A stretch of 64,000 nt of DNA from Bradyrhizobiaceae bacterium PARB1. Lineage in GTDB: Bacteria > Pseudomonadota > Alphaproteobacteria > Rhizobiales > Xanthobacteraceae. Below are positions 11,474-44,187 of the stretch, piece after piece; positions within the stretch are counted from its first letter, which is position 1, and each line of letters starts with the position of its first letter. Under the pieces are notes generated by a model, which did not search any database, was not told the DNA's origin, and saw only the letters and a program-made list of their open reading frames with translations. The DNA is taken from contig NKIY01000001.1 in the NCBI GenBank assembly GCA_002256345.1, positions 946,194 to 1,010,193 of the forward strand, in the 5' to 3' direction. The position numbers and the translations under genes were made by a program.

Positions 11474-12631
11474 CTAAGAGCGCGCGGATGGCTGGCGTCC
11501 GCCGAGCGGCTCGCCAAACGGGCCGGTATTGGCGCGTGCACGCCGGATTCCGGCACTCGGAGCCTTGTTCAGCAGCGGGAACACCAGTTCGGCGAAGCGA
11601 TAGGCTTCCTCCAGATGCGGGTAGCCGGACAGGATGAACGTATCGATGCCGAGGGCCTGATATTCGCGGATGCGGGCAGCCACGGTTTCGGGATCGCCGA
11701 CCAGGGCCGTACCGGCGCCTCCGCGCACGAGGCCGACGCCGGCCCATAGATTGGGGCTGACTTCGAGCTTGTCGCGCCGGCCGCCATGCAATTGCGACAT
11801 CCGCTGTTGGCCGACGGAATCCATCCGGCCGAGAATGCTCTGGGCCGATGCGATGGTCTCGTCGGTGAGGTGTGCGATCAGGTCGTCCGCTGCCTTCCAT
11901 GCCGCTTCATTGGTCTGGCGCACGATGACGTGCAACCGGATGCCAAAACTGATGCTACGTCCGCGCTGCTCCGCCAGCTTGCGGACGCGGCCGATCTTTT
12001 CGGCCACCTGATCCGGCGGCTCGCCCCAGGTCAGATATTTGTCCACCGTGTCGACCGCGACATCGATGCCGGCTTCGGACGAGCCGCCGAAATAGAAGGC
12101 CGGGCGCGGATCCTGCGCCGGCGGGTAGAGGATACGACCATCCTCGATGGTGATGTGTTTTCCCTGCACATTGACGGCTTCGCCCTTGAGGAGCTCGCCA
12201 TAGACATTGAGAAACTCGCGCGTCACCTCATAGCGTTCGTCGTGATCGAGGAAGATGCCGTCGCCGCGGTTCTCGGTGGCATCGCCGCCGGTGACGATAT
12301 TGATCAGCAGGCGACCATTGGTGAGGCGATCCAGTGTGGCGGTCATCCGCGCCGCGACCGTCGGCGATTGCAGCCCGGGCCTTACGGCGACGAGATAGCG
12401 GAGTTGCCTGGTCCATGGTGCGATCGCCGAGGCGATCACCCATGAATCCTCGCAGCTGCGGCCGGTCGGCAGCAACACGCCGTAATAGCCGAGCCTATCC
12501 GTAGCCTGCGCGATTTCGCGGAGATAGTCGAAGTCGACCTCGCGTGCGCCATGCGTGGTGCCGAGATGATGGCCGTCGCCGCTGGTGGGCAGAAACCAGA
12601 GAACCTTCAGATCGTCATTGGCTGCGGTCAT
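11474..12631 (-). CDS. ssuD: FMNH2-dependent alkanesulfonate monooxygenase SsuD
   Basis: About 385 residues. The start MTAANDDLK leads into [20 protein letters not shown], then [33 protein letters not shown] and [15 protein letters not shown], which are close to SsuD landmarks including the active-site region around the Cys and the GG-D loop. The reaction is oxidative release of sulfite and an aldehyde from alkanesulfonates, using FMNH2 and O2. The ATG overlaps the ssuA stop by four bases, so transport and desulfonation are coupled. No flavin reductase (SsuE) is encoded nearby. Confidence 0.92.
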
Positions 12632-23851: not shown

Positions 23852-24940
23852 ATGAGCATCGCACCTCTTCGATTTGGCGTCTGGTCACCGGTGCATGGGC
23901 CGAGGGCAGCGCATCGCGATCCCGAAGAGCCGTATGATGCATCATGGGAGCGCAACCGCGCGCTGGTGCTGCAAGCGGAGGCGCTGGGGTACGATTCCGT
24001 GCTGATTGCCCAGCACACGATCAATCCGCACCAGGAAGATCTCGATCAGTTGGAGACGTGGAGTTCTGCTGCGGCGCTTGCAGCGTTGACCGATCGAATC
24101 GAGATTATCGCAGCCATAAAGCCCTATCTGTTCCATCCCGTCGTCCTGGCCAAGATGGCGCTGCAGATCGAGAATATCAGCCGTGGCCGTTTTGCCCTCA
24201 ATCTGGTGAATGCCTGGAACAAGCCCGAACTGGAAAAGGCCGGCATCGGTTTCGCCGAACACGACGATCGCTATGCCTATGGCAAGGAATGGATCTCCAT
24301 CGTCTCGCAACTCACCAGTGGTGAAAGGCTGACGCATAAGGGAGGCAATTTCGATGTCCGCGACTATGCCCTGCGGCCCAAGGACCAGTATCGCGCGAGA
24401 CCTGCGATTTATGTGGGCGGCGAATCCGAGCCAGCACGCGATCTGGTTGCCGCGCATGGCGATGTCTGGTTCATCAATGGACAGCCATTGGCGGATGTGG
24501 CGGCGCTGATCGACAATGTGGCGTCACGGCCCCGATCTGGTGCACCGCTGCGTTTCGGGCTGTCCGCTTTCGTGATTGCGCGCGATACCGACGGGGAAGC
24601 CGAACACGCGCATCAGCGCTTGCTGACGCTGGCGGCCCAGGATGCGCCGATGAAAGCTATTCAGCGCGCCAATACCGATCCGAAGGTCGTGATGATGCAG
24701 ACCATGCAGAAGACGCCGCGGGTCGGCACCAATGGCGGAACTGCTGCGGGTCTCGTGGGAAGCTACGATAAGGTTGCCGCCCGCATCCGCGAATTCCATG
24801 CGGCCGGCATCGAACTGTTCATGCTCCAGTTCCAGCCGTTCGAAGCCGAGATGCAGCGCTTTGCGGAGCAGGTGTTGCCGCGGGTGAGGGACGTGACCGC
24901 ACAAGGCGGCGCGCGCCTGAGCTTGCCTGTCTCGACATGA
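23852..24940 (+). CDS. LLM-class flavin monooxygenase, SfnG/SsuD-like
   Basis: A 362-residue luciferase-like enzyme: PLRFGVWSPVHGPRAAHRDPEE, ALGYDSVLIAQHTINPHQ, NISRGRFALNLVNAWNKPELE, FAEHDDRYAYGKEWI, and IYVGGESEPARDLVAAHGDVWFINGQ in segments. The last block resembles SfnG (dimethylsulfone monooxygenase). It needs FMNH2 from a separate reductase. ATG 23852 has GAGG upstream at good spacing; ATG 23840, four codons earlier, is an alternative. It is monocistronic, ends in a hairpin, and is divergent from an SsuABC importer that may feed it. Confidence 0.85.
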   Translation: MSIAPLRFGVWSPVHGPRAAHRDPEEPYDASWERNRALVLQAEALGYDSVLIAQHTINPHQEDLDQLETWSSAAALAALTDRIEIIAAIKPYLFHPVVLAKMALQIENISRGRFALNLVNAWNKPELEKAGIGFAEHDDRYAYGKEWISIVSQLTSGERLTHKGGNFDVRDYALRPKDQYRARPAIYVGGESEPARDLVAAHGDVWFINGQPLADVAALIDNVASRPRSGAPLRFGLSAFVIARDTDGEAEHAHQRLLTLAAQDAPMKAIQRANTDPKVVMMQTMQKTPRVGTNGGTAAGLVGSYDKVAARIREFHAAGIELFMLQFQPFEAEMQRFAEQVLPRVRDVTAQGGARLSLPVST

Positions 24941-26074: not shown

Positions 26075-27733
26075 TCAGCGGGCGTCATGCACAATTCGCC
26101 CGTCTGTCAGCGTGAGCAGGCAATCGATATTCTTCAACCGTGCTGGCGGGAGCGTGGTCGGATCTTCGGACAGCACCGTGAGGTCGGCGACATAGCCGGG
26201 CTTCAGGCGGCCCTTCCAGCCTTCGTCGAAAGTGAGAGCGGCACCCGCGGCGGTGAACAACTCCAGCGCCGTATGCGCATCGAGGCGCTGGTTTGGTCCG
26301 ATCACCTGGCCGGTGGTGCGTTCTTCGCGGGCGCACGTGGTCCATAGGGTGAAGAATGGATCATAAGGGATGTTGTCGGTGGCGATGGCGAGCGGGATTC
26401 CGGCATCGACAAGGCTGCGATGCGGTACGACGTTGTCGCCGCCATCGGGCTCGGCGAGATATTTCTGGCCGCCCTTCCAGAGATAGTAGGTCGAGATCGT
26501 GGTGACATGGATGCCCAGCTGCTTCAGCGCGCAGATGTCTTCAGGGCGGGCGCGGCCGATATGTTCGATGACCCAGCGGCGAGCGGTGATCGGGTGGCGT
26601 TCGTTCACCGCCTGCAGCACCGGCACGATGTCATGCAGCTGATCGCCGACGATGGTGTGCAGGCGCAGATCGAATTCGGCGGCGAGGAAGCAGACCTCGC
26701 GAAAATCGGACGGCGACACCGCTTGTTCGACGAAACCGGACCAGCCGGTGTCCGGCAGATGCGCACGGGCGCAGCACGCCACAACGGGATCGCCGCCATA
26801 GGCGATATGGATACCCGAGACGCGCAGCCAGCGATCGCCGAGGCCACTGCCACGCGCGCTGGCCAGCCAATCGCGCATGATACGGCGTGCTTCCGTAAGA
26901 TCGCTCCAGCTGGGGCTCACCACGAGACCGGCGCGGACGGTGAGCTCGTTCAGCTCCCACAGCCGACGATAGACCGAGATGGTCTCGGCGGCGGAGCCGT
27001 GGCCTTCATAGATGCTGGTGGTACCCTTGGCGTTGTAGAGGCGCTGCGAGCGCCTGATGCCCTCGAGCCGGTGATCGAAACCGAAGCGTGGCACCACGGG
27101 GAGGATGTCGAATTCCACGGTCGGCCGGTTGTTGTGCTCTATGATGATCCCGGTCGGCACGCCCTCGGCATCGCGTTCGATCTCGACGCCGTCGATGCGA
27201 GGGCGTGTGTCCGGGCCGATGCCGTTGAGGGCGAGTGCGCGCGAGTTCAGCGCGGTATGGCCGGGCGGCTTGCCCCAGTTGCCGAACACGCCCTGGATGT
27301 AGACGGGATGATCGGGCGCCGCGGCATCCAGTTCGTATCGGTTCGGCAGCCGCTTTTCGGCGAGGGCGGAGACGCCGTCGAAGAAAAAGGGAGGTGTGCC
27401 GGCCGGCATGGTGGCGATCCATTCGCCGGGCGGTGTCGTGGCCGCCGCTGCGCGGACGATGGCGAGGATGTCGGCAATCGAGGTGGCGCCGGTCAGCGAG
27501 GGCCGCAACGACTTCAGGCCCTCGCGCTCCATATGGGCGTGGGTATCGTTGAAGCCAGGGATCAGGCAGGCGCCCTGCAGGTCGATGCGCTGGGCAGCGG
27601 GCGCTGATGCGCGGACGTAGTCGGCCGTGCCAACGGCCGTGATGGTGTTGCCGTCGATCGCGATAGCCTCTGCCGTCGGGCGATCGGGATCGAAGGTCAG
27701 GATCCTCGCATGTTCGAAGATCCGCGCCGTCAT
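26075..27733 (-). CDS. Amidohydrolase family protein (YtcJ-like)
   Basis: About 552 residues. N-terminal beta-sandwich (IFEHARILTFDPDRP; NTITAVGTADYV), then the metal motif in LIPGFNDTHAHME, with further His ligands in LRLHTIVGDQLHD and WVIEHIGRA and an Asp in LAIATDNIPYDP, closing with GYVADLTVLSEDP. This is the amidohydrolase-3/YtcJ group of metal-dependent hydrolases acting on C-N bonds. There is no signal peptide. The ATG overlaps the permease stop by four bases, making it the last gene of the ten-gene operon and suggesting the imported compound has an amide or similar bond. Confidence 0.87.
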   Translation of the reverse strand: MTARIFEHARILTFDPDRPTAEAIAIDGNTITAVGTADYVRASAPAAQRIDLQGACLIPGFNDTHAHMEREGLKSLRPSLTGATSIADILAIVRAAAATTPPGEWIATMPAGTPPFFFDGVSALAEKRLPNRYELDAAAPDHPVYIQGVFGNWGKPPGHTALNSRALALNGIGPDTRPRIDGVEIERDAEGVPTGIIIEHNNRPTVEFDILPVVPRFGFDHRLEGIRRSQRLYNAKGTTSIYEGHGSAAETISVYRRLWELNELTVRAGLVVSPSWSDLTEARRIMRDWLASARGSGLGDRWLRVSGIHIAYGGDPVVACCARAHLPDTGWSGFVEQAVSPSDFREVCFLAAEFDLRLHTIVGDQLHDIVPVLQAVNERHPITARRWVIEHIGRARPEDICALKQLGIHVTTISTYYLWKGGQKYLAEPDGGDNVVPHRSLVDAGIPLAIATDNIPYDPFFTLWTTCAREERTTGQVIGPNQRLDAHTALELFTAAGAALTFDEGWKGRLKPGYVADLTVLSEDPTTLPPARLKNIDCLLTLTDGRIVHDAR

Positions 27734-28590
27734 GATGCCGCGTACCAGGGGAACAGCCAGCGGGCCAGCGCGACGAAGACGCGGTCGGCGAGGAAGCCGA
27801 AGGCGCCGAGCAGGGCTAGGCCGATGAACATGATATCGACACGAAACAACTGATGGCCCTGCGACATCATATAGGCGACGCCGGCGGATGCGCCGGACAG
27901 TTCGGCAGCCACCAGCACGATCAGCGAGACCGCGATGGACTGCCTGATGCCCGACAGGATGAAGGGCAATGCCGCCGGCAGCACCACCAGCAGCAGCGTG
28001 TCGCGACGGCTGGCGCCAAGGCAGGCGGCGGAGCGCAGATAGATCAGGTTGATGTCGCGAACGCCGATAAAGGTGGTGATCCAGATCGGGAAGAATGCGC
28101 CCCATGCCACCAGCACGACTTTCGACGGCTCGCCGATGCCGAACCACAACACGCAAAGCGGCACCAGTGCGATGGTGGGGATCGAGCGAAAGCCGTGCAG
28201 CAGAGGCTCGACCAGATATTGTAGCCAGCGGATACGGGCGGTGACGAGACCGAGGCTGATGCCGGCAACGAGCGCGAAGACGAAGCCGATGCCCGCGCGC
28301 TGCAGGCTGACGGCGATGTTGTGGCCGATCTCGCCGGAGGTCAGCATGGGGATGAAGGCCTGCAACACGGCGCTCGGCGGCGGAAACAGGACTTCATTGA
28401 CCCAAACGGAATAGCGCGGGATCGCTTCCCAGATTGCAATGAACACCACCACGCCGAGCACATTCAGCGCCAACCGCGTGAGCTGCGCCTTGCGGCGTGC
28501 GCGATCATTGGCGGCGCGAAACTGGGCGTCGAAGGAGGACGATGCCGGATGCGCATCAGCGGCGAGATCGGTGTTCGAAATGGTGGTCAT
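27730..28590 (-). CDS. ABC transporter permease, SsuC/TauC type
   Basis: About 286 residues: a charged N-terminal tail of ~40 residues, six membrane segments, and the EAA loop AACLGASRRDTLLLVVLPAAL. The start MTTISNTDL overlaps the ATPase stop by four bases. It forms an importer with the ATPase at 28587 and binding protein at 29360. It is the third permease of the ten-gene operon. Confidence 0.88.
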   Translation of the reverse strand: MTTISNTDLAADAHPASSSFDAQFRAANDRARRKAQLTRLALNVLGVVVFIAIWEAIPRYSVWVNEVLFPPPSAVLQAFIPMLTSGEIGHNIAVSLQRAGIGFVFALVAGISLGLVTARIRWLQYLVEPLLHGFRSIPTIALVPLCVLWFGIGEPSKVVLVAWGAFFPIWITTFIGVRDINLIYLRSAACLGASRRDTLLLVVLPAALPFILSGIRQSIAVSLIVLVAAELSGASAGVAYMMSQGHQLFRVDIMFIGLALLGAFGFLADRVFVALARWLFPWYAAS

Positions 28591-29363
28591 GCAGCCTTCC
28601 GCGTGCCGTTGCTCAATTCGCCGGAGATCGCGCCATAGAGTTCGCCGAATGCGGCCGAGCCGCGATCGCGGGGATAGGGCGCGTCGATGCGGCGATCGGC
28701 GACAATGGTGCCGGGATGTGACGCCATGATCACCACGCGCTGAGCGAGATAGACGGCTTCGTCGATATTGTGGGTGACGAAGATGACGGAGACGCCAGTC
28801 TCCTTCCACAGCCGCAGCAGATCGTCCTGCAGCGCCTGCCTTGTCATCGCATCGACCGCCGCAAAGGGTTCGTCCATCAGCAGCACTTTTGGCTCGACGA
28901 CGAGGGCCCGCGCCACGGCGACGCGCTGGCGCATGCCACCGGACATTTCGTGCGGATATTTGTCGGCAGCGGCGAGCAGGCCGACGCGATCGAGCGCTGC
29001 GAGCGCCTGCCGCCGTCGCTCGTCGCGCGACAGCGGCTTGGCGCGCAGGCCAAATTCGACATTCTGCCGGGCCGTCATCCAGGCAAACAGCGCATATTCC
29101 TGAAACACGACGCCGCGCTCGGGGCCGGGCGCCAGGATCGGCCGTTGCTGGAATGCGACGCTGCCGCGGGTCGCTTGCAGGAAGCCCGCGATCAGGTGCA
29201 GCAGCGTGGTCTTACCGCAGCCGGATGGGCCGATCAGGCAGACGAATTCGCTATTGCCGATCTGCAACGTGATGTCGCGCAGCGCCCAGGTAGGGGCGCC
29301 GTCGCGTCCCGCATAGACCTGCGAGACTCCGGAGATGTCGATCAGTGACGGGGCGCCGCTCAT
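28587..29363 (-). CDS. ABC transporter ATP-binding protein, SsuB/TauB type
   Basis: A 258-residue ATPase: Walker A GPSGCGKTT (45-53), Q-loop VVFQEYALFAWMTARQNVEFGL, signature MSGGMRQR in place of LSGGQ, Walker B VLLMDEPFAAVD and switch His VIFVTHNIDEA. It overlaps its neighbours on both sides by four bases (ATGA). Partner of the permease at 27730. Confidence 0.9.
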   Translation of the reverse strand: MSGAPSLIDISGVSQVYAGRDGAPTWALRDITLQIGNSEFVCLIGPSGCGKTTLLHLIAGFLQATRGSVAFQQRPILAPGPERGVVFQEYALFAWMTARQNVEFGLRAKPLSRDERRRQALAALDRVGLLAAADKYPHEMSGGMRQRVAVARALVVEPKVLLMDEPFAAVDAMTRQALQDDLLRLWKETGVSVIFVTHNIDEAVYLAQRVVIMASHPGTIVADRRIDAPYPRDRGSAAFGELYGAISGELSNGTRKAA

Positions 29364-30403
29364 GTCAGCGTCACGCGATCCGGCTTTGCAGTCTTCACCG
29401 GCCCGTCGGCGACGAGACCACGGAGCAGGGGACGCAGCTCGCCTTTAGGCGGCTTGGCGAGGCCCGCATCGATGGCCCACTGCGCCTGATTGACGAGATC
29501 ATCGACAAAACGTTCGTCGAAAGTGAGCTTGAAGGTGAAGGTCGAGGTCGCATCGGAGATGTCGTTGGCGGGCGTCTTGATCCGCTCGGCGATGGTCTGT
29601 GGCCAGCTCCTGTCACTGGCGATGCGGGCCTCGGCTTCGAGGAACACCTTGACGGCGGTGTTCACCAGCTCGGGTTTCTCCTTCAGCACGCGCTCGGTGG
29701 TGAGCAGCAGCTGGTGGCTCTGGAAGTATTTCTCGATGCCGTCGAGGGACATTTCCTCGACCTGCCCGTTCGACTGTTTCTGTGCGACACCGACGGTCTG
29801 GCTGACCCAGGCAAAGGCGTCGATGTCGCCGCGCACTAGGGCCGTTGTCATGTTGTTCGGCGCGAGATCGACGACCGTGACATCCTGCAGCTTGAGCCCG
29901 GCGAGTTCGAGATATTTGGCGAGGAAGAACTGGCCCGATGTGCCGATGCGCGTCGCGATCTTGCGGCCCTTCAGGCTGACGGGATTTCTCGGATCGATCG
30001 GTCCGCCCTTCTTGATGGCGATCTTCATGTCGCGCGAATAGCGGCTGTAATTGATGACAGCCACTGGACGCAGGCCGGTGAGGGCTGCGAAGACGAGCGG
30101 CGTATCGGTGGAGGCGGAGAAATCTGCCGAGCCCGACAGCAACGCCTGCATGGAATCGCGGCCGGTCTCGAAGGACGAGGTCGCCAGATCGACATTAGCT
30201 TTCTGCCAAAGGCCGGCCGCTTCCGCGACATAGGGAAGCGCCCAAGTATAGCCGGTGCTGCCATAGGCCAGAACGGCTTTGCTGCGCGCCTGCGCGATTG
30301 CCGGAGCGCCGAGCAGGCCGGTGGTGGTGACGGCGCCGGCACCGATCAGCAGGCGTCGGCGATCGATCGAGAAGCGGTGAGGAGGCTGGAGAGATCGGGT
30401 CAC
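29360..30403 (-). CDS. NitT/TauT-type ABC substrate-binding protein (Tat-like leader)
   Basis: A 347-residue receptor: leader DRRRLLIGAGAVTTTGLLG (twin-Arg-like) with cleavage near AIAQA, then VLAYGSTGYTWALPYVAEAAGL, LLSGSADFSASTDTPLVFAALTG cut by a loop, and VSLKGRKIATRIGTSGQFFLAK. It belongs to the SsuA/NMT1 fold. It is distinct in sequence from the adjacent receptor at 30446, so the operon encodes two specificities. It is the first gene of the downstream transporter set. Confidence 0.86.
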   Translation of the reverse strand: MTRSLQPPHRFSIDRRRLLIGAGAVTTTGLLGAPAIAQARSKAVLAYGSTGYTWALPYVAEAAGLWQKANVDLATSSFETGRDSMQALLSGSADFSASTDTPLVFAALTGLRPVAVINYSRYSRDMKIAIKKGGPIDPRNPVSLKGRKIATRIGTSGQFFLAKYLELAGLKLQDVTVVDLAPNNMTTALVRGDIDAFAWVSQTVGVAQKQSNGQVEEMSLDGIEKYFQSHQLLLTTERVLKEKPELVNTAVKVFLEAEARIASDRSWPQTIAERIKTPANDISDATSTFTFKLTFDERFVDDLVNQAQWAIDAGLAKPPKGELRPLLRGLVADGPVKTAKPDRVTLT

Positions 30404-30445
30404 GTAGAAATTCCTGTTGTGATGGATGAATAACGGATCGCCGGC

Positions 30446-31507
30446 CTATGCCTTCGGCGTTCCGTCGACCTGGCGCGTCGTCCAGAATTTCTCCAGCTTG
30501 AGATCGGCCAGCGCCTGGTTGAGCGGCGCGGGATATGCCCATTGCTTCACGTCGATGTCGTTGCGGATCAGCTTTTCTTCTTTCGAGAAATCGATCACGT
30601 CCTGGAACTGGGCTAGCAGGAAATCATCGACCAGCGGGTTGAACGCGTCCTTCAGCGGCTGGCCACTGAATTCCTCTCGCAGCGCTTCATAGGGCGTGCC
30701 GGATTTCGACCAGATCCGCAGCGTCTCGTCGCGATTGGCTTCATCCGCGATCCAGGCCACGGCCTTGACGAGACCCGTGACGACGCGGCGCGTCGCATCG
30801 GGATATTTTTCACGGAATGCATCGGTGACCAGGATGCCGCCGAAGCCGGTGACCTTCGGCCCGATATCCTTCGATGTGTAAAAGATATCGACGATGCGTT
30901 TTTCGCGCAGAGACAGCACCGAGCTCGACCCGATGCTGGCATCGACGCTGCCGGCGGCAAGGGCTGCGAGTTGGTCGGCCGTCTTTAGATCGACGATGGT
31001 GACGTCCTTCGCCGTCAGGCCATTGCTCTTCAGCGCGCGCAGAAAAGCCCAATGCAGGATGGTGCCCTTCTGGAACGTGACCTTGCGTCCCTTGAGGTCT
31101 TTGATGGAATGGATCGGCAGACCTTTTCGGGCGGCGCCGAAGATAGTCGTCGGACCATAGTTCAGCAGCACGCGGGTGGGCAGGCCATTGGCGCGACCGA
31201 TCACATTCGGCAGCGCGCCATATTGCGCGAAGTCGATGCGCCCATTGGCGATGCCTTCATTGACCGCAGGACCCGTGCCGGCGAGATAGGTCCATTCCAG
31301 CTTGACCGACGTGTCATTGAATTCGTTTGCGATGAAGTCCTTGGCCTGGGCGACGCCGAAGGTGGCCACGCCAAAAGGCTGGCCGAAGCCGGCGCCGAAG
31401 GCACCGAAGCGGATCGTGTCGGGATTGTCGGCGGCGCGGGCCGTGTTGGCGGTGGCCAGCAAAGCGGCGGCGCCTGCGGTGAAACTGCGTCGGGTGATGT
31501 TCTGCAT
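30446..31507 (-). CDS. NitT/TauT-type ABC substrate-binding protein
   Basis: A 353-residue receptor: RR-containing leader (NITRRSFTAGAAALLATANTARA), then IRFGAFGAGFGQPFGVATFGVAQ, RIDFAQYGALPNVIGRANGL, IKDLKGRKVTFQKGTILHWAFL and VDASIGSSSVLSLREKR. It is the receptor of the upstream transporter set (two permeases, ATPase), 14 bp after the ATPase gene. The glycine-rich segment after the signal differs from the other receptors here. Confidence 0.86.
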   Translation of the reverse strand: MQNITRRSFTAGAAALLATANTARAADNPDTIRFGAFGAGFGQPFGVATFGVAQAKDFIANEFNDTSVKLEWTYLAGTGPAVNEGIANGRIDFAQYGALPNVIGRANGLPTRVLLNYGPTTIFGAARKGLPIHSIKDLKGRKVTFQKGTILHWAFLRALKSNGLTAKDVTIVDLKTADQLAALAAGSVDASIGSSSVLSLREKRIVDIFYTSKDIGPKVTGFGGILVTDAFREKYPDATRRVVTGLVKAVAWIADEANRDETLRIWSKSGTPYEALREEFSGQPLKDAFNPLVDDFLLAQFQDVIDFSKEEKLIRNDIDVKQWAYPAPLNQALADLKLEKFWTTRQVDGTPKA

Positions 31508-31521
31508 GGTGTGCTCTTTGC

Positions 31522-32274
31522 TCAGTGTCGGAGATCGGCGAGGACGCGCTGTTTCAGCGCGACGAAATCGGGGGCTGCGCGGTCGCGCGCATTGAGTTCG
31601 ACCGGAATGATGACGCTGCGGATGCGGCCGGGGCGCGGCTCCATCACCACGATGCGGGTCGAGAGATAGACGGCTTCCTCGACATCATGGGTCACCATGA
31701 TCACGGTGGTGCGCTGTGCTTCCCAGATCTCCAGCAGAGCGTCTTGCAGACGCGTGCGGTTCAGCGAATCCAGCGCGCCAAGCGGCTCATCGAGCAGCAG
31801 GATCGACGGTCGTCGTACCAGCGCACGTGCGATGGCGGCGCGTTGAGCCATGCCGCCGGACAGTTGCGCGGGGCGGGCACGTTCGAAGCCGGTGAGGCCG
31901 ACCAGTGCGATGGCGTCGTGCACGCGCTGCGTCTTTTCTTCGACTGGCAGTGGAAACGCATCCAGCGCGAGCGCGACATTCTCCGTGAGCGTCAGCCACG
32001 GAAACAGCCGGTGATCCTGAAACACGATGCCGCGATCGGCGCCGGGGCCGTTCACTGGCGCGCCGCCGAGCAGGATCTCGCCGCGAAAGCTGTCGTCGAG
32101 CCCGACGATTAGGCGCAGCAGCGTGGACTTGCCGCAGCCGGAGGCGCCGACAATGCTGACGAATTCCCCCGGGAATACCGAGAGCGAGATGTCCTGCAGC
32201 ACGGGCAAGGGTGTCTCATCGACCATATAGGTCTTGGTGACGTGACGGATAGCGAGTTCGTTGAAGGCAACCAT
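31522..32274 (-). CDS. ABC transporter ATP-binding protein, SsuB/TauB type
   Basis: About 250 residues: Walker A GASGCGKST (43-51), IVFQDHRLFPWLTLTENVALAL, signature LSGGMAQR, Walker B ILLLDEPLGALDS, VIMVTHDVEEA. ATG 32274 is used here; an in-frame GTG at 32286 overlaps the preceding stop (GTGA) and would add four residues. It is the only ATPase following two consecutive permease genes, so it may energise a heterodimeric channel. Confidence 0.88.
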   Translation of the reverse strand: MVAFNELAIRHVTKTYMVDETPLPVLQDISLSVFPGEFVSIVGASGCGKSTLLRLIVGLDDSFRGEILLGGAPVNGPGADRGIVFQDHRLFPWLTLTENVALALDAFPLPVEEKTQRVHDAIALVGLTGFERARPAQLSGGMAQRAAIARALVRRPSILLLDEPLGALDSLNRTRLQDALLEIWEAQRTTVIMVTHDVEEAVYLSTRIVVMEPRPGRIRSVIIPVELNARDRAAPDFVALKQRVLADLRH

Positions 32275-32282
32275 GTTGTTTC

Positions 32283-33080
32283 TCACGTCAGGCCGGAGGC
32301 GCGTGCCAGCACCAGCGACGACAGCCAACGGCACAGCCGGGTGGCGAGATAACCGGCGGCGGCTAGCGCAGTGACGCCGATGATCACGATGTCCATGCGA
32401 AACTGCTCGCGGCCTTCGGACACGAAGGTGCCGATGCCGCGGCCATTGCCGATGGCGTATTCGGCGCCGACCGTGCCGATCCAGCCGCTGATCAGCGCGA
32501 TCTCGATGCCGATAGTGATGGCCGGCAAAGCGGCCGGGATCAGTACGCGACGGATTTCCTGGTGGCGAGACAGGCCGAGCACGCGCGCGACTTCGCGATA
32601 AGTGATCGACACATTCCGCAGCCCGGTGGTGGTGTTTAGCGCCACGGGGAAGAAGGCAGACAGGGCGATGTAGACGATCTTGCTCGCTTCGCCATTGCCG
32701 AACCACGCTGTCAGCAACGGGATCCATGCGAACAAAGTGATCTGCCGCAACGCGTGAAAGGTGCCGCCGCCGGCGCGCTCGGCGGTGGTGGAAAGGCCCA
32801 TGCTGCTCCCGAAAGCGAGACCAGCGGCGATGCCGATGCTAATGCCCATGATGTAACGCAGCAGGCTGGCCCCGATGGCGTGCCAGATTTCACGGCCGGC
32901 GGCATCGTCAAATGGGGCCAGCAGTAACTGTTCGAGATGGATCGCGAGCGGGCCTGACACCCACCCTACATGGACGGACCAAGCCCAGCCGATCACAAGG
33001 ACGATCGGCAGCACGAGGCCGCGAGGCCAGGTCAGGCGGCTTGCTCGTTGCGATATGATGACGGCGACGGGATGGCTCAT
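32283..33080 (-). CDS. ABC transporter permease, SsuC/TauC type (tandem, second)
   Basis: About 265 residues, six membrane segments, EAA loop REVARVLGLSRHQEIRRVLIPAAL. The start MSHPVAVI overlaps the preceding permease stop by four bases. In length and topology it matches the neighbouring permease but the sequences are clearly different. The pair probably assembles as a heterodimer rather than two homodimers, since only one ATPase and one receptor follow. Confidence 0.87.
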   Translation of the reverse strand: MSHPVAVIISQRASRLTWPRGLVLPIVLVIGWAWSVHVGWVSGPLAIHLEQLLLAPFDDAAGREIWHAIGASLLRYIMGISIGIAAGLAFGSSMGLSTTAERAGGGTFHALRQITLFAWIPLLTAWFGNGEASKIVYIALSAFFPVALNTTTGLRNVSITYREVARVLGLSRHQEIRRVLIPAALPAITIGIEIALISGWIGTVGAEYAIGNGRGIGTFVSEGREQFRMDIVIIGVTALAAAGYLATRLCRWLSSLVLARASGLT

Positions 33081-33904
33081 GCGCGCAGCTCCCAGCGCTG
33101 CAAACGACGTTCGATGCACGCGAGGCCGGTATCCATGGCGAGACCGATCAGGCCGATCACCGCCATGCCGACGATCACGATGTCGATCTGAAACAGCGTG
33201 CGGCCCCACACCATCGTGTAGCCGACGCCCTCGGTCGCGGCGAGCATCTCGACCACGATCAGTGCGATCCATGCATGGCTGAGCGCTGTGCGAAGGCCGC
33301 CGAAAATGCCGGGCACCGTGGCCGGCACGACGAGGCGACGCAGATAGGAGCCCGCGGGCAATTGCAGCACGCGCGCGACTTCGCGAAGGGGGGCGGGGAT
33401 CTGTTTGATGCTTTCCGATGTTGCGATGACCGTCGGCACGAAACTCGCTTTTGCGATCAGCACGAATTTCAGCGTCTCATCGAGGCCGAAGATCAGCAGC
33501 AGGATCGGCAGCCAGCCGAGCGAGGGGACTTGCGCCAGAAAGCGGAATGTTAAGCCGCAATAGTTCTCGACGGTACGGGACAGGCCGAGCAGGGCGCCGA
33601 AGATGAGGCCGCTTCCGGCGCCGATGACGAAACCAATCCCGATCCGCCACAGGCTGATGCGCAGGCCATCGAGGATCTCGCCGCCGCGAATGAGTTCGAT
33701 AGCGGTGCTCGCAACCAGCAAAGGTGACGGCAGGATCTGGACGGGCAGCAGATGCAGCGAGGTCGCGAGCTGCCACAGGAGCAGGATTGCCAGTGGTACA
33801 GTCAATGGCAGGAGACGATCGCCGACGACACGCCAAGTCCAGATACGCCGCGCGGTTGGACCAGGATCGATGACGCGATCGGCGATCGCGGATCTGACAC
33901 TCAT
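33077..33904 (-). CDS. ABC transporter permease, SsuC/TauC type (tandem, first)
   Basis: About 275 residues: cytoplasmic N-terminus ~30 residues, six membrane segments, EAA loop LREVARVLQLPAGSYLRRLVVPATV. ATG 33904 (MSVRSAIADR) has GGAG upstream. It lies 46 bp after the ferredoxin gene, the widest gap in the ten-gene operon, where a weak internal promoter or separate translation start is possible. Confidence 0.87.
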   Translation of the reverse strand: MSVRSAIADRVIDPGPTARRIWTWRVVGDRLLPLTVPLAILLLWQLATSLHLLPVQILPSPLLVASTAIELIRGGEILDGLRISLWRIGIGFVIGAGSGLIFGALLGLSRTVENYCGLTFRFLAQVPSLGWLPILLLIFGLDETLKFVLIAKASFVPTVIATSESIKQIPAPLREVARVLQLPAGSYLRRLVVPATVPGIFGGLRTALSHAWIALIVVEMLAATEGVGYTMVWGRTLFQIDIVIVGMAVIGLIGLAMDTGLACIERRLQRWELRA

Positions 33905-33950
33905 GTAAAACTCCGGGACGCCGCGATGCGTCTGATGGCATCGGATGCGG

Positions 33951-34271
33951 TCAATGACCGAATAGTTCGTGGCTACGATCGATGCCGCGACGGTTCTTGG
34001 TGTCCTTGGTCCATCCAACGGCACGGCGGTAGCTGCCGAGCCCGTCGACATCCTTCAGCGCGGTGGCGTGAAGACTGACTGGCGTCTCCGCGAAGGGCGA
34101 CACGTAGAGGGAATCCTCGGGGCAATAGAGCTCGCACATGAAACAGGTCTGGCAATCCTCCTGCCGCGCGATGACAGGAAAGCCGTCGGTCTTGTCGAAC
34201 ACATTGGTTGGGCAGACGCGGACGCAGATATTGCAAGAGGTGCAGGTCTCGCTATCGATAATCTCGATCAT
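33951..34271 (-). CDS. 2[4Fe-4S] ferredoxin family protein
   Basis: A 106-residue protein with two classical cluster motifs: Cys10, 13, 16 and 20 (CTSCNICVRVCP) and Cys40, 43, 46 and 50 (CQTCFMCELYCP), followed by a ~55-residue basic/aromatic tail (VGWTKDTKNRRG). ATG 34271 is preceded by GGAGG at ideal spacing and overlaps the flavoprotein stop (ATGA), so the two are made together. Small 2[4Fe-4S] subunits of this form partner AprA-like flavoproteins. Cytoplasmic; it should carry electrons to or from the FAD subunit. Confidence 0.88.
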   Translation of the reverse strand: MIEIIDSETCTSCNICVRVCPTNVFDKTDGFPVIARQEDCQTCFMCELYCPEDSLYVSPFAETPVSLHATALKDVDGLGSYRRAVGWTKDTKNRRGIDRSHELFGH

Positions 34272-35881
34272 TCCGCTGCCTCCGCAAGATAGGCATCGGC
34301 ATGCGGACGGGTCGATGTCCACACCTCGTCGAGGCCGCCGGTGGTGATGTAGTGGCGCTGCGCGAGATCCTGCTCGGGGAAGTCGTCGCGACGATGCATG
34401 CCGCGGGTCTCAGTCCGGGCGAGGGCGCTGCGATACATCCAGCGCACCGTTGCCAGCATGGCCGCGCTCTCACGGGCACGAACGATGTCCCTGTGCGGGG
34501 CCGCACCGGCGCGCGTCGCGTCGTGCCACAGCGTATCAAGTCGATCGAGCGAGGCCGTCAGGCGGCCAGCCTCGCGAAAATAATTGATCTCGTAAGGGAA
34601 GGCTTCGGCCTGCACGGCGGCTGCGAGATGGGCGCCGTTCAACGCAGGGCGCGTGCCCTGCTGCAGGCCAACCGTGCCCGCGCCCGTCGCGGGTCCGTGC
34701 AACCCACGGCCACCTTTGACGTAGCGTGCAGCACCTTGTCCGGACCAGAATCCGGAAGACATGGCCCAGGCCGCATTGTGGCTGCCGCCGCCGGTGAAGC
34801 CGCCGCAGACGAGCTCACGCGTTGCTGCGTCACCGGCAGCATAAAGTCCTGGCACCGTGGTCGCGCAGCTGTCATCGACAACACGCAGCCCGCCGGTACC
34901 GCGAATGGTGCCTTCGAGACGCAGCGTAATTGGAAAGCGTTGGGTGAACGGATCGATACCGGTGCGATCGAAGGGCAGGAAGAAGTTGGGCTGCGATGCC
35001 CGCATGGCGTCTCGGACATCGGCATCGGCCTTGTCAAGCTGCGCATAGACGGGGCCTTCGAGCAGCGCGCGTGCGATGGCCGAGCGGCCACCTTTGGAAG
35101 CGGCGCCCGGCACGGGCGATCCATTCTGATAGGTGAACGTGCCCCAGCCGAAAAACAGCGTTTTGGTCACCGATCCGAATGCCGCCGAGATTGCGTAAGG
35201 ATTGGAGAACTCCATGCTCGTGAGTTCGGCGCCGAGTTCGGCCGCCATCAGATATCCGTCACCGGTAAGTACGTTCGATCCCAGTGTCTTGCTGAGAAAC
35301 GCACAGCCGCCGGTGGCGATAACGACTGCGCCGGCGCGCACGCGCCATGGCTTGCCATCCTGCCGCTGGACACCGGCTGCGCCGGCGACTGCACCGGAAT
35401 CATCGACAAGCAGCTCGAGCGCCGGGCTTTGATCAAGGATCGTTACGCCTGCTGCCTTGGTGCGCTTGCGCATCAGGCGCATATATTCAGGGCCCTGCAG
35501 CGAATTGCGCTGTGGACGGCCGTCTGTGTCAGTGGGGTAGGGATATCCCCAATCCGCCAGCTTGTTGCCTTGCTCATAGGTGCGATCGAGCACGCGTGCC
35601 ATCCAGCGGCGATCCTGCAGATATCCGCCCATTTTCTCGCGGCCGGCCATCGCCGCTTCGCGCTTGTCGTTGTCGGGGTCGATATACCAAACGCCCGTGC
35701 CAGCTGCGGCAGTTGCGCCAGATGTGCCACAAAAGCCCTTGTCCACGAGAACGACGCGCGCGCCTTCATTGGCTGCGCTGATCGCGGCCCAGGTGCCAGC
35801 CGGGCCGCCACCGATCACGAGGACATCGGCATCGAGCGATATGGCCTCGCTTGCGTTACTGCCGCGTGTTTGCTCGCTCAT
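34268..35881 (-). CDS. FAD-dependent oxidoreductase, fumarate reductase/AprA-like flavoprotein
   Basis: About 537 residues. An N-terminal FAD-binding motif (VLVIGGGPAGTWAAISAANEG, Gly24-Gly29) is followed by VVLVDKGFCGTSGATAAAGTG, a mid-domain VVIATGGCAFLSKTLG, and the C-terminal LYAAGDAATRELVCGGFTGGG. This is the fold of fumarate reductase, succinate dehydrogenase and adenylylsulfate reductase alpha subunits. It has no signal peptide. ATG 35881 has GGAG seven bases upstream. It is coupled to a 2[4Fe-4S] protein and heads a ten-gene transporter operon. A redox step on an imported sulfur compound is inferred; substrate unknown. Confidence 0.85.
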   Translation of the reverse strand: MSEQTRGSNASEAISLDADVLVIGGGPAGTWAAISAANEGARVVLVDKGFCGTSGATAAAGTGVWYIDPDNDKREAAMAGREKMGGYLQDRRWMARVLDRTYEQGNKLADWGYPYPTDTDGRPQRNSLQGPEYMRLMRKRTKAAGVTILDQSPALELLVDDSGAVAGAAGVQRQDGKPWRVRAGAVVIATGGCAFLSKTLGSNVLTGDGYLMAAELGAELTSMEFSNPYAISAAFGSVTKTLFFGWGTFTYQNGSPVPGAASKGGRSAIARALLEGPVYAQLDKADADVRDAMRASQPNFFLPFDRTGIDPFTQRFPITLRLEGTIRGTGGLRVVDDSCATTVPGLYAAGDAATRELVCGGFTGGGSHNAAWAMSSGFWSGQGAARYVKGGRGLHGPATGAGTVGLQQGTRPALNGAHLAAAVQAEAFPYEINYFREAGRLTASLDRLDTLWHDATRAGAAPHRDIVRARESAAMLATVRWMYRSALARTETRGMHRRDDFPEQDLAQRHYITTGGLDEVWTSTRPHADAYLAEAAE

Positions 35882-36252
35882 ATATATTCTCCACAGCATG
35901 TCGGTATGCGCCAAAGCAATGGCGTATGCTGTGTGGATGTTCGCGCGATCCGTTCGCGCTGACAATTTCAGAGTTTGTCGTGAAGCAAGCACAAAAGCTT
36001 CGTGTTGCTACGCCATTGTGAAAAATTGTGTTTGCACCGCTTGATGTAGTTTGTGTAGGTCCGCATGGATGACCCGTCATGGCGAAGGGCGCTGAGCGAC
36101 AATCTCCGTCAGGTGCATGCTGCGGCAGAATGAATGCCGTGTTCTGCGCGTTATATCGGAACGGATATTGCTATTTTTCCGGATGCGTTGAAGTCGGCCG
36201 CTGCTGTGTCAATTTCGATCTCAATGATCAGGAGCATGAGGGGAGAATCGCT
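35882..36252. promoter_or_regulatory. Divergent promoter region (about 370 bp)
   Basis: No credible gene. This region separates the ten-gene leftward operon from the rightward CmcJ/NvfI-type gene, and is AT-richer than its flanks. A short inverted repeat GAAGC (35983-35987) and GCTTC (35998-36002) is visible. GAGGGGAGA just before 36253 is the ribosome site of the rightward gene. Confidence 0.4.
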
Positions 36253-37101
36253 GTGGCCATCCACTACGACATTCAGGGCGGAACTCTGCCATTCGTCACG
36301 GCGGAGTTAAATTATCTTGCGCCGACGTGTGAGAAGCCCCGGACCTACGCTTACGACCTACCCCCGGGCGAGCCGAAAAGCACGGCGCATGCGCAGCCGG
36401 TGCAGGTCAAAATCGCTGATGGGCGCCCGATACGCGACCGGCTGACTCTCGACCGCGCCGGCTTCGCACTAGTCGATCAGCAGACCGCGGTGCGCGACTT
36501 CTATGATGATGACGAGATCACACGCGTTTATTACCCGGAAGCTAGCGATTTCCTGCGCAGCAGCCTCGGTGCCGACAGGGTTTTCATTTTCGATCATACC
36601 GTGCGCAAGCGCGTGGTGGGTGCGGCGGATGTGCGCGGCGATGGCCCGCGTCAGCCAGCTAGCCGGGTTCACGTCGATCAGACCCTGCGCTCAGGGCCGA
36701 ACCGTGTTCATGAGCATCTGCCGGACGAGGCGGATGAACTGCTGCGTGGGCGCGTGCAAGTGATCAATCTGTGGCGGCCGATCAAGGGTCCGCTGCGCGA
36801 CACGCCGCTTGCAATGTGTGATGGTACCAGCGTCGCGCAAAAGGATCTGGTGGCGTCGGACCTCATTTATCCCAACCGGCAGGGCGAGACTTATTCGGTC
36901 ACCTATCATCCCGATCACCGGTGGTTCTATTTCCCGGAGATGGACGTCAATGAAGCGCTGCTGCTGAAGTGCTACGACTCCGCATCCGACGGGCGCACCC
37001 GGTTCGGGCCGCACACTGCGTTCGTCGATCCCACTACGCCTGAGGATGCGTCGCCGCGCGAAAGCATCGAGCTCCGTGCGCTGGTATTTCATCACGCTTG
37101 A
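36253..37101 (+). CDS. CmcJ/NvfI-family oxidoreductase
   Basis: About 282 residues. The pattern AELNYLAP, RVHVDQT, NLWRPIKGPLRDTPLAMCD, WFYFPEMDVNEALLLKCYDS and HTAFVDPTT...RESIELRALVF is that of the CmcJ/NvfI family. Members act in fungal and bacterial natural product or xenobiotic modification, possibly as Fe/2-oxoglutarate-like enzymes; candidate metal ligands are the His/Asp of HVD and the late His. The GTG at 36253 is chosen because GAGGGGAGA lies ~7 bases upstream; the longer ATG frame is Cys-rich and lacks a site. It stands alone between two operons. Confidence 0.78.
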   Translation: MAIHYDIQGGTLPFVTAELNYLAPTCEKPRTYAYDLPPGEPKSTAHAQPVQVKIADGRPIRDRLTLDRAGFALVDQQTAVRDFYDDDEITRVYYPEASDFLRSSLGADRVFIFDHTVRKRVVGAADVRGDGPRQPASRVHVDQTLRSGPNRVHEHLPDEADELLRGRVQVINLWRPIKGPLRDTPLAMCDGTSVAQKDLVASDLIYPNRQGETYSVTYHPDHRWFYFPEMDVNEALLLKCYDSASDGRTRFGPHTAFVDPTTPEDASPRESIELRALVFHHA

Positions 37102-40901: not shown

Positions 40902-41891
40902 TTACTTGAGGCTCTTGGAACGTTCATAGGGGCCGGTGACGAACAGTTCGTCATTCAGCTTGCCTTGGATGAAGCCGCCGGCGGCGAGCACCTCATGCTG
41001 GCGCTTCAGGCTGGCGATGTCGGCGGGCTCGAACGCCACACGGTTCACGACATCCCAGTTGGTGACATAGGCCTTGGCATCGCTCGGCGAGAGGTTGGCG
41101 CTCTTCTCGAGAATGGTTGCGACTTCGGCCGGATTGGCGGAGCCCCATGCCACCGCATCGCGGAGCGCCGCCACCAAGGCCGCCACCGTATCGGGCTTCT
41201 TGGTGATCAGATCGGTGCTGACGGCGGCGACGCCGTTATAGGGCAGGCCGTCCGACTTGGTGAGCTTGCGCCATTCATCGAAGAAATTGCCGAGCTTCTT
41301 CACTTTCAGCTCGCCGTCGATTTGGTTGACGGTGATGGAGCGCAGCGCGGAGGCATCGACCTGCTTCTGAACCAGGAACTGGACGAGACGGGACTCGTTA
41401 CCGCCGACCAGCGTGTATTCTTCCGGCTTGATGCCGTAATTGCCGGCGAGGATTGCGTTGGCGAGAACGGCCGTCGATGATCCTGCGGGGGACGAACCGA
41501 GCTTCTTTCCCTTCAGCTCTGCGATCGAATTGATGGGAGAGTCGCTAGGAACGACGATCTGCACGTCGGCTGGCTGGGTTGCCGCGAACAGCTTGATCGG
41601 TACGCCTTCATTGACGGCGCTGAACACGCCGGCGAGCGGTGCGGCAAAGGCGACATCGATGGAGCCGGATGCGATGGCACGGATCGGGGCGATGAGATCG
41701 GGGAAGTGGATGAACTCGGCATCGATGCCGCGCTTCTTCAGGAAGTCGTGCGACTCCAGCACGGAGCCATAGCCGAGGCTGACGCCGCTGGTCCAATAGC
41801 CGATGCGCACTTTCTGCTGCGCTTGCGCCGGGATGGTCACGGCAAATGCCGCAAGGGCTGCGACGGCAAACAGGGTCTTCCGGAAGATCAT
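40902..41891 (-). CDS. NitT/TauT-type ABC substrate-binding protein
   Basis: A 329-residue receptor: signal peptide ending TIPAQAQQ, then VRIGYWTSGVSLGYGSVLESH, DVAFAAPLAGVFSAVNEGV, LKGKKLGSSPAGSSTAVLANA and VNQIDGELKVKK. It has the SsuA/TauA fold. It lies 17 bp after the permease gene in a permuted order (ATPase, permease, receptor). The cargo probably enters the acyl-CoA steps encoded downstream. Confidence 0.87.
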   Translation of the reverse strand: MIFRKTLFAVAALAAFAVTIPAQAQQKVRIGYWTSGVSLGYGSVLESHDFLKKRGIDAEFIHFPDLIAPIRAIASGSIDVAFAAPLAGVFSAVNEGVPIKLFAATQPADVQIVVPSDSPINSIAELKGKKLGSSPAGSSTAVLANAILAGNYGIKPEEYTLVGGNESRLVQFLVQKQVDASALRSITVNQIDGELKVKKLGNFFDEWRKLTKSDGLPYNGVAAVSTDLITKKPDTVAALVAALRDAVAWGSANPAEVATILEKSANLSPSDAKAYVTNWDVVNRVAFEPADIASLKRQHEVLAAGGFIQGKLNDELFVTGPYERSKSLK

Positions 41892-41908
41892 GGCAGATGC
41901 CTCGTCGG

Positions 41909-42673
41909 TTAGGATTGCTGTTTCCAGCGGGACAGGAAGCGTTCAAGCGGTTTGAGAAGGCCGGATTCGAAGATGAGCATCAGCGTGACCAGCATCACGG
42001 TCCAGGCGAAAACCTTGTCGCTCTGCACGAGGTCGGCGGCCTGGCGCAGGCGATAGCCAATGCCGTTCGATGACCCCAATGTCTCGGCGACAAGCGACAC
42101 CCGCCAGCCGAAGCCGAATGCGAGGCGCGCGCCGGAGAAGAAATAGGGCAAGATGCTGGGCAGGTAGACTTTCACAAGGATCTGCAGCCGCGACATCCGG
42201 AACGAGCGCGCCAGATCGACATACTGCCGGTCCACGGTGCGGGTGCCTTGCCAAACATTGGTCAGGATCAGCGGAAACGCTGTCATGAACACGACGAAGA
42301 TGGTCGTCGCATCCGAGATACCGAACCAGATGATGGCGAAGATCGCCCAGATCGCCGATGACACGGTATTAAGGACAGCCAGGACCGGTTCGAAGAAGGT
42401 CGCCAGCTTCCGGTTGGCGCCGAGCACAAGGCCGGCCAGCGTGCCGGCGACAGTGCCGAGCGCAAAACCGCTGAACACGCGGTTCATAGTGGCGGCGACA
42501 TCGCGACTGAAGCTGGCGCTGTGAATCAGTGCATTGACAGCGTCCAGCACCTTCGCCGGGCTCGGCAGCACGAAGGAGGGGACCTTGTTGGAGGCGTACC
42601 ACCACAGCAGCACGATCGCCCCGAACAACAGGCAACGCTGCAGCAAGATGCTGCTGATACGCGTGAACGACAT
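41909..42673 (-). CDS. ABC transporter permease, SsuC/TauC type
   Basis: A 254-residue permease with six membrane segments and the EAA loop YVDLARSFRMSRLQILVKVYLPSIL. It lies four bases after the ATPase gene. It forms the importer with the genes at 42678 and 40902. Confidence 0.87.
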   Translation of the reverse strand: MSFTRISSILLQRCLLFGAIVLLWWYASNKVPSFVLPSPAKVLDAVNALIHSASFSRDVAATMNRVFSGFALGTVAGTLAGLVLGANRKLATFFEPVLAVLNTVSSAIWAIFAIIWFGISDATTIFVVFMTAFPLILTNVWQGTRTVDRQYVDLARSFRMSRLQILVKVYLPSILPYFFSGARLAFGFGWRVSLVAETLGSSNGIGYRLRQAADLVQSDKVFAWTVMLVTLMLIFESGLLKPLERFLSRWKQQS

Positions 42674-42677
42674 GATC

Positions 42678-43442: not shown

Positions 43443-44187
43443 CGCGTGGCCTGGCATGAGAGATAGCAGGCAAATTGTGCAGTGCCATGTTGCTTTGAGA
43501 TTTAGTCAAAACCAGATGGCGATGAAAGTGATCTGCCGCGTTCGCGTGGAATAACAACGCGCGCGTCGTTCATGTCGCTGCGGGAGGTGAATCATTCGCT
43601 TCGGCGACGCCATAAGAGGAGATGTTTCTAGGCGCCCGGGTGTGTCCCGCCATGGATATAACGCGATGGGTGCAATCGCGTGTCACGCAGAAATGAAAGC
43701 GACGCGCGGCGGATGACTGTTGTTGTTCAGTTCAGCGCTGTTTACGCGCCGTCGCGGCAACTAACAAAACCGATGCGCGGTAGTGGGCGCAGCAACTACA
43801 TGTGCTGCGGTGTCGTTGACGGAGTCAGCGTGCCGTGCTCCGTAATTCATTGTAATCAAGACGCTGGCACGCCCCGGATAGGCGAAACGAACACCGGACA
43901 GCGTGACGAGCGGCTGCACCGTCATCGGCCCGCATCTGCATGACCGCCTGACGCCGGCAGTGGCCGCAGAACTGGAGCGGCTGCATCCTTCGTCGCGCCA
44001 GGACTCGGCGCCTAGCATTCGCACAAGCGAGATGGTTGCATTGTTGCGCGGGGGACGAAGTTTCCCGCGTGCGTGCGTAGCGAAGAATAATATGGTGCGC
44101 GAGGGGGAGTCATTGGGTGATCTTGCCGTGTAGAAAGTTCCGGTAGGCTGCTAGTTTCATCTGAAACGTCACTCAGAGAGACCGACC
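43443..44187. other. Gene-poor spacer with a possible ABC ATPase fragment
   Basis: About 745 bp between the importer operon and the metallo-hydrolase, with no complete gene. On the minus strand, 43925 down to about 43856 reads MTVQPLVTLSGVRFAYPGR, which looks like the first strand of an ABC ATPase and then degenerates. Plus-strand frames here lack family features. The remainder probably holds the promoters of both flanking operons. Confidence 0.4.

Follow-up and report, generated by a model that had tools for sequence, protein, structure and literature searches.

Ten genes on the reverse strand of Bradyrhizobiaceae bacterium PARB1, at positions 26075-35881 of a 64-kb stretch of contig NKIY01000001.1 (the whole of which is called the window here), probably form an asf-type operon that scavenges sulfur from aromatic sulfonates; a probability of roughly 0.72 was assigned to this reading. 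On sequence grounds, the first two genes encode the AsfA/AsfB pair of the asf aromatic-sulfonate system, and they are followed by two ATP-binding cassette (ABC) importers in series and an amidohydrolase (Table 1). A preliminary description of the same DNA had labeled the pair AprAB-like and knew of no named pathway for it. The pair belongs to a published system, and the label was abandoned on the scores and residues given below.

Organic compounds, chiefly sulfate esters and sulfonates, make up more than 95% of the sulfur in soil, according to the accessible part of PMC4267179. In that part, an asfA transposon mutant of Pseudomonas putida S-313 is described as having lost the use of aromatic sulfonates and kept that of aliphatic ones, asf is said to complement ssu in an aromatic-sulfonate pathway that needs ssu too, and asfA is called a key marker for the trait. 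The available excerpts of PMC10441942 also state that both clusters are needed, and those of PMC9694294 use asfA as a marker gene and list alphaproteobacterial sequences too. In the accessible portions of papers on Rhodococcus, Gordonia, Paraburkholderia, and Bradyrhizobium the AsfA/AsfB pair is not named, and in that of PMC4070957 asfA appears only within a reference title. Among the literature matches listed, which covered few subscription papers, no name was found for the serial two-cassette layout, and no asfA paper also mentioned an amidohydrolase or fumarate reductase.

Identity of AsfA and AsfB

The window flavoprotein had a single match at E ≤ 1e-20 in the CHR2 record of Cupriavidus metallidurans CH34 (64.2% identity over 97%), one of 59 plasmid and megaplasmid records that matched AsfA at this threshold. 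The CH34 record carries no gene names, and the position of AsfA was checked by using TauD genes as anchors; the CH34 paper (PMC2864759, accessible in part) numbers six TauD genes and reports asfR in this strain. One TauD-like open reading frame (ORF) was found in each 50-kb stretch expected to hold Rmet_4136, Rmet_4409, and Rmet_4633 (at 710, 1004, and 1263 kb), and none was found in a fourth stretch (935-985 kb). Hand interpolation from the first two anchors placed Rmet_4334 at approximately 923 kb, and the AsfA match was located at 928 kb. Because this match fits the position of Rmet_4334, the window flavoprotein was identified as AsfA and the ferredoxin as AsfB. In an AsfA tree of 97 rows, the window and CH34 proteins fell within one clade of nine rows (SH-aLRT 97), and the nearest named AsfA sequences, among the best 80 of 190 relatives, were from Bradyrhizobium, which probably places the 6.95-Mb genome of the window in the Nitrobacteraceae.

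Both CxxCxxCxxxC motifs of AsfB (eight cysteines) were present in 104/104 rows taken at ≥ 60 bits, and asfA and asfB overlapped by 4 bp in 79 of the 102 locus records with both genes on one strand, a set in which some genes are counted twice (e.g., L005 and L105). Outside the cluster motifs, G79 and G86 were present in all 104 AsfB rows and W87 in 103; residues 79-87 may form a contact with AsfA.

Distribution of asfA loci and linkage to importers

In order to describe asfA neighborhoods, 79 loci from the best 80 of 190 relatives were combined with those of CH34 and Paraburkholderia caribensis (81 in total). Loci with complete 5-kb flanks (65, after 16 were dropped) formed a full-flank subset, and the control consisted of 20 stretches of 20 kb drawn at random from four genomes that carry asfA; bit thresholds for neighbor labels were chosen after inspecting the locus data. 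An importer gene was found within 5 kb of asfA in 48/65 full-flank loci vs 1/20 random stretches (Fisher p = 3e-8), and a receptor/ATPase/permease set in 34/65 vs 1/20 (Fisher p = 8e-5), the loci being partly non-independent in both comparisons. Across all 81 loci, 55 had any importer gene and 38 a full import set. The preliminary description had named homologs lying mostly outside transporter loci as evidence against it, and these counts run the other way. When monooxygenase, SfnB, and MetQ genes were considered together with importers, 57 full-flank loci had at least one such gene and 8 had none. An AsfB-like ORF was found within 5 kb of asfA in 74/81 loci (the others being L028, L029, L093, L095, L098, L099, and L101).

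The asfA loci span Pseudomonadota, Actinomycetota, Cyanobacteriota, Bacillota, and others. With the PARB1 genome itself counted, homologs were found in 3/18 genomes of the genus (E ≤ 1e-60), 2/385 of the class (1e-40), and 6/199 of the order and 12/398 of the phylum (both 1e-30), these genome samples being overlapping.

Two AsfA/AsfB-like pairs occurred per locus in some Actinobacteria (L050, L052, L054, L057, L058) and Bacillota (L035, L063). In the five actinobacterial double loci the copies split into two clades, and the second L035 copy was spread over two ORFs. One genome of the same family (G378) had three AsfA-like places (L008, L007, L009), of which L007 matched only from residue 184 and L009 was split over several frames.

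Fold and conserved residues of AsfA

The 50 best fold matches of the AsfA AlphaFold model (pLDDT 84.3, pTM 0.88) were all chains of succinate dehydrogenase, fumarate reductase, aspartate oxidase, or adenosine 5'-phosphosulfate/3'-phosphoadenosine 5'-phosphosulfate (APS/PAPS) reductase. Judged from this model, AsfA shares its architecture with enzymes in which FAD and substrate come into direct contact. Residues 218-394 gave no useful match to Protein Data Bank (PDB) sequences, and among the 25 NCBIfam families listed (of 89) none reached its cut-off.

Residues were counted in 93 of the 97 AsfA rows, leaving out the long-branch rows L101, L015, L023, and L086. R327 and R355 were present in 93/93 (and also in L015 and L023), and Lys or Arg was found at position 240 in 91/93. 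His232, His355, and Arg390 of FrdA and Arg265 and His398 of AprA are catalytic residues of those enzymes. In a profile alignment the three residues of Escherichia coli FrdA aligned with AsfA Y229 (89/93 rows), E323 (88/93), and T363 (Ser or Thr in 16/17 rows). In a distant alignment (24% identity), AprA Arg265 faced a gap in AsfA and His398 aligned with I326, beside R327. Because the catalytic residues of both enzymes are missing and its own arginines are kept, AsfA was considered to be neither FrdA nor AprA.

Fumarate reductase/succinate dehydrogenase was accordingly rejected on these residues and on model scores (TIGR01176, 87.3 of 932.7 bits; TIGR01812, 101.3 of 567.3 bits), as was dissimilatory AprA, and with it the AprAB label (NF005331, 68.2 bits; cut-off 557). 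No match to AprA (TIGR02061) was found in the PARB1 genome at E ≤ 1e-100 with four of eight candidates scored.

The most serious competing explanation, which we regard as possible and doubtful, is that AsfA and AsfB form an electron chain only, running from NAD(P)H through AsfA and AsfB to an oxygenase that alone touches the sulfonate. The accessible parts of PMC4267179 and PMC2864759 describe the two proteins in this way, as a reductase/ferredoxin electron chain, and Pyr_redox_2 matches AsfA at 53 bits. However, that match is best over residues 19-202, inside the FAD-domain stretch, and the ten Pfam families listed for AsfA include no nucleotide-binding domain apart from this stretch. The fold matches above also argue against an electron chain, and there is no constant oxygenase neighbor, an LLM monooxygenase being present within 5 kb of asfA in only 21/65 full-flank loci. 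A simple NADH-reductase label would thus find little structural support in the model, and we infer that AsfA handles substrate rather than acting as an NADH reductase.

Operon organization and the two importer cassettes

The preliminary description had given ten leftward genes in a fixed order with junctions of 46 bp or less, and had assigned them to flavoprotein, eight-cysteine 2[4Fe-4S] protein, permease, ATPase, receptor, and amidohydrolase families. Coordinates and junctions agreed with this account, as did Pfam and NCBIfam scans. Overlaps of 4 bp were found at the asfA/asfB, permease 1/permease 2, rec2/ATPase 2, ATPase 2/perm3, and perm3/amidohydrolase junctions. The permease 2/ATPase 1 junction is either a further 4-bp overlap (GTG start at 32286) or an 8-bp gap (ATG at 32274), so that the total of such overlaps is five or six. 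The remaining gaps are 46 bp (asfB-permease 1, the largest), 42 bp (rec1-rec2, with rec2 starting at GTG), and 14 bp (ATPase 1-rec1).

Table 1 Positions of the operon genes and of two candidate partner enzymes within the 64-kb window
Feature	Position	Strand	Evidence
asfA, FAD flavoprotein, 537 aa	34268..35881	-	PF00890, PF02910; FAD_binding_2 with Succ_DH_flav_C; 64.2% identity to CH34
asfB, 2[4Fe-4S] ferredoxin-like subunit, 106 aa	33951..34271	-	Fer4 families; eight Cys, two CxxCxxCxxxC motifs
Cassette I permease 1	33077..33904	-	PF00528 (BPD_transp_1); top window permease for first permease of L110, L135, L027, L069, L075
Cassette I permease 2	32283..33080	-	PF00528; top window permease for second permease of L110, L135, L027, L069, L075
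Cassette I ATPase, start GTG 32286 or ATG 32274	31522..32286	-	PF00005
Cassette I substrate-binding protein (rec1)	30446..31507	-	PF09084, NMT1/SsuA family; TIGR01728 136.7 bits, below cut-off of 163.5
Cassette II substrate-binding protein (rec2), GTG start	29360..30403	-	PF09084, NMT1/SsuA family; TIGR01728 121.1 bits, below cut-off of 163.5
Cassette II ATPase	28587..29363	-	PF00005; counterparts in L103, L133, L134
Cassette II permease (perm3)	27730..28590	-	PF00528; counterparts in L103, L133, L134
Cassette II amidohydrolase (Amidohydro_3)	26075..27733	-	PF07969, 204 bits
ssuD, FMNH2-dependent alkanesulfonate monooxygenase, candidate partner outside operon	11474..12607	-	TIGR03565 617.5 bits, above cut-off of 518.2; start from HMM match
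SfnG/SsuD-like luciferase-type monooxygenase, second candidate partner	23900..24940 (scanned range)	+	PF00296; TIGR04021 218.6 bits, below cut-off of 382.95

Promoters and terminators separating the transporter genes had been named in the preliminary description as counter-evidence, and a pattern scan gave no boundary signal at any junction; all sites fell inside coding sequence, and the counts were below those in shuffles (3 terminator-like sites vs 6.5 expected, 1 promoter-like site vs 2.0 expected). The same gene order was found in the two further asfA genomes of the genus, G015 (L105, L106) and G003 (L107, where the contig begins inside asfA), and because it is kept in both, the order was taken to be more than chance. 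When the DNA upstream of the operon was aligned pairwise with that of G015, column identity averaged 65%; no motif is claimed from this.

The window transporter genes were scored against 19 hand-chosen related loci, three of them from the same genus. Cassette I (rec1, perm1, perm2, ATP1) best matched the importers beside asfAB in L110, L135 (Paracoccus), L027 (Haematobacter), L069 (Rhizobium), L075, and, in broken form, L092 (both Brucella); in L109 it lies on the opposite strand to asfAB. The order on the asfAB strand in cassette I loci elsewhere is asfA-asfB-receptor-permease-permease-ATPase. Cassette II (rec2, ATP2, perm3, amidohydrolase) matched the importer beside asfAB in Azospirillum (L133), where the genes are annotated accordingly and whose receptor gave 460.5 bits with rec2, and in CH34 (L103, convergent). 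The importers of L067, L080, L089, L056, L081, and L084 fit both cassettes poorly. Besides the window, six rows of the AsfA tree carried cassette I, two carried cassette II with the amidohydrolase, 52 carried another importer ATPase, and 36 carried none (200-bit receptor threshold; the short loci L001-L023, with flanks of ~1.5 kb, undercount neighbors). With 6 and 2 of 97 AsfA rows carrying them, cassettes I and II are therefore minority partners of AsfA. They occur in series in the window and the two same-genus genomes, and the window joins two arrangements found apart elsewhere; the two importers recognized in the preliminary description are thus separable, each standing alone beside asfAB in other genomes.

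Neither cassette reached the NCBIfam SsuABC cut-offs (receptors as in Table 1; permeases 122-145 of 347 bits, NF008470; ATPases 180-193 of 395 bits, NF008420), and the operon receptors and SsuA share a superfamily (PF09084). Homologs of the amidohydrolase (E ≤ 1e-60) were found in eight plasmid records, and in seven of these, five from Azospirillum and two from Cupriavidus, the homolog lies no more than 5 kb from asfA. In the eighth, from Variovorax (L134), cassette II lies among sulfur genes with no AsfA in 12 kb. Within the genus, the amidohydrolase and asfA occurred in the same 3/18 genomes (p = 0.0012, ignoring relatedness), and a stricter search of the phylum (E ≤ 1e-90) gave the amidohydrolase in 2/299 genomes, both of this genus. 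Its PDB sequence matches were weak and partial, and therefore no substrate is claimed.

It is quite unlikely that these genes are two abutting operons that meet at the 42-bp gap between rec1 and rec2, the second being unrelated to AsfAB. Such a split would agree with the separate occurrence of the two cassettes in other genomes and with the Variovorax locus, but the shared order in 3/3 same-genus asfA genomes, the joint occurrence of amidohydrolase and asfA in the genus, the position of cassette II next to asfAB in Azospirillum and CH34, and the lack of a terminator-like site at the gap all favor one unit.

Window surroundings and candidate monooxygenase partners

Judged by its genes, the window reads as a sulfur-scavenging island, since SsuD, other monooxygenases, SsuA-family receptors, a rhodanese, and a sulfur transporter share it. 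The ssuD gene is located ~13 kb from the ten-gene operon. Homologs of the SfnG-like enzyme (607-623 bits) were found near asfA in Bradyrhizobium L024, L025, and L065, and probably also in L108, where monooxygenase labels are pooled. The window also encodes two monooxygenases of the NtaA/DmoA type, another luciferase-type enzyme, two receptors of the SsuA family that exceed their cut-offs, and an SfnB-like enzyme that does not reach its own. SsuD was over cut-off in 14/16 asfA genomes vs 22/~194 others (200 minus six known asfA genomes, with further asfA carriers among these possible); genome size and habitat may be confounders of this co-occurrence.

Several further features were observed. The rhodanese gene overlaps by 4 bp with the gene after it, which encodes a Sulf_transp (YeeE/YedE-class) membrane protein (window 1345-3536), a CmcJ/NvfI family oxidoreductase is divergent from asfA (36079-37101; 339.9 bits vs a cut-off of 80), and an apparent further receptor/permease/ATPase set, named from ORF reading, lies at 40902-43457. 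In genome G476, two SsuD fragments, one with a stop, were found ~4 kb from asfA (G476:C3:123151-123449).

The preliminary description had proposed a redox step on an imported sulfur or nitrogen compound in scavenging. The sulfur part was supported by the neighbors scanned, and the nitrogen part was disfavored, no specific nitrogen-gene search having been made. We consider it very unlikely that the importers carry a nitrogen compound or an aromatic acid and that the tie to sulfur is incidental. The amidohydrolase would suit such a cargo, as would the genes at 52-62 kb, which from the appearance of the ORF list seem to be of phenylacetate type. Against this stand the sulfur genes of the window (SsuD, the two NtaA/DmoA enzymes, the two SsuA-family receptors over cut-offs, the transporter, and the rhodanese) and the presence of an LLM monooxygenase, SfnB, or MetQ within 5 kb of asfA in 23/65 full-flank loci vs 0/20 random stretches.

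Comparison with known systems

The asfRABC cluster of P. putida S-313, as far as its published description was accessible, resembles the window in its AsfA flavoprotein, AsfB ferredoxin, and import genes, and asfRAB of CH34 does so in AsfA, AsfB, and in having cassette II with the amidohydrolase alongside, although convergent. Unlike both, the window has two importers and an amidohydrolase after asfAB on the same strand, and a LysR gene is not an immediate neighbor. Azospirillum argentinense p4 (L133) carries an FAD-binding protein, ferredoxin, SsuA-type receptor, ATPase, permease, and amidohydrolase in one run, as in the window, but has cassette II only, with an extra FAD/NAD(P)-binding protein following. 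Paracoccus aminophilus pAMI6 (L135) has asfAB and then the cassette I receptor, two permeases, and ATPase, but no second cassette, and its receptor comes first where that of the window comes last. SsuEADCBF, which the aryl pathway is reported to need in the accessible literature, has an importer superfamily in common with the window; unlike it, the operon has no SsuD inside, and its receptors fall below the SsuA-family cut-off.

The PAPS reductase of Methanothermococcus thermolithotrophicus (8A8O) is like AsfAB in its FAD alpha subunit and small two-cluster beta subunit (571 and 104 aa vs 537 and 106 aa) and is matched in both sequence and fold, but it is hardly credible that AsfAB is itself an assimilatory APS or PAPS reductase of this kind: identity in the fold alignment is 19%, the APS-reductase catalytic residues reported kept in 8A8O are not kept in AsfA (the AprA Arg265 and His398 positions among them), and the NF005331 score given above is far below cut-off. 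This candidate was rejected on scores and residues, with weak support from PF01507, a broad family over cut-off in 16/16 asfA genomes and also in 14/14 controls; its three (CysH/CysD-type) matches in the PARB1 genome are all outside the window.

Weighing the asf reading

Besides the published electron-chain description and the Pyr_redox_2 match, several observations weigh against an asf-type operon with a substrate-handling AsfA. The link to the published system is through the AsfA of CH34 and not that of S-313, where the mutant was made, and two Pseudomonas AsfA homologs (L059, L070) fall outside the clade of the window. No importer gene was found within 5 kb in 17/65 full-flank loci, LLM monooxygenases are as infrequent as noted above, both operon receptors score below the SsuA-family cut-off, and two of the 16 asfA genomes (G476, G865) have no SsuD over cut-off. 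A LysR regulator (AsfR) is not an immediate neighbor of the operon, which is flanked upstream by the CmcJ/NvfI family gene and downstream by an NlpA lipoprotein gene; nor was a LysR found among three tested CH34 ORFs upstream of asfA, even though asfR is reported for that strain in the accessible part of PMC2864759. Because AsfR does not adjoin it, the operon was filed as an AsfAB-based variant and not as an asfRABC cluster.

Proposed pathway

Under the asf reading, two NMT1/SsuA-class ABC importers would, from their families, take up two related organosulfur cargos, and the amidohydrolase might, more tentatively, cleave the importer II cargo at a C-N or similar bond. AsfA and AsfB would assemble into an FAD/2[4Fe-4S] complex with the architecture of PAPS or fumarate reductase, in which electrons would move between the clusters and FAD, and FAD would act on the aromatic sulfonate or an intermediate. 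An FMNH2-dependent monooxygenase, either SsuD (11.5 kb) or the SfnG-like enzyme (23.9 kb), would then break the C-S bond. Sulfite enters cysteine synthesis, and the sulfite released here would be expected to do so.

A bolder version, which we think unlikely, is that AsfAB represents a new catalytic class that activates the aromatic sulfonate itself via transient ring reduction or an FAD-sulfonate adduct, the activated sulfonate then being split to phenol and sulfite by an SsuD-type monooxygenase. Such monooxygenases work on carbons bearing a hydrogen. The very low potentials required count against ring reduction. If true, this activation would account for the reported need of both asf and ssu for aromatic sulfonates, and for the reported use of aliphatic ones without asfA.

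AsfAB as a kind of system is already known; what would be new, as far as the sequences indicate, is that two cassettes stand in series, that an amidohydrolase recurs as a partner within one branch, and that the residues conserved in AsfA argue for its being a catalytic subunit. The fold assigned to AsfA, its invariant residues, the hydrolase that recurs beside it, and the two importers together make the role of AsfAB testable in this locus and its relatives.

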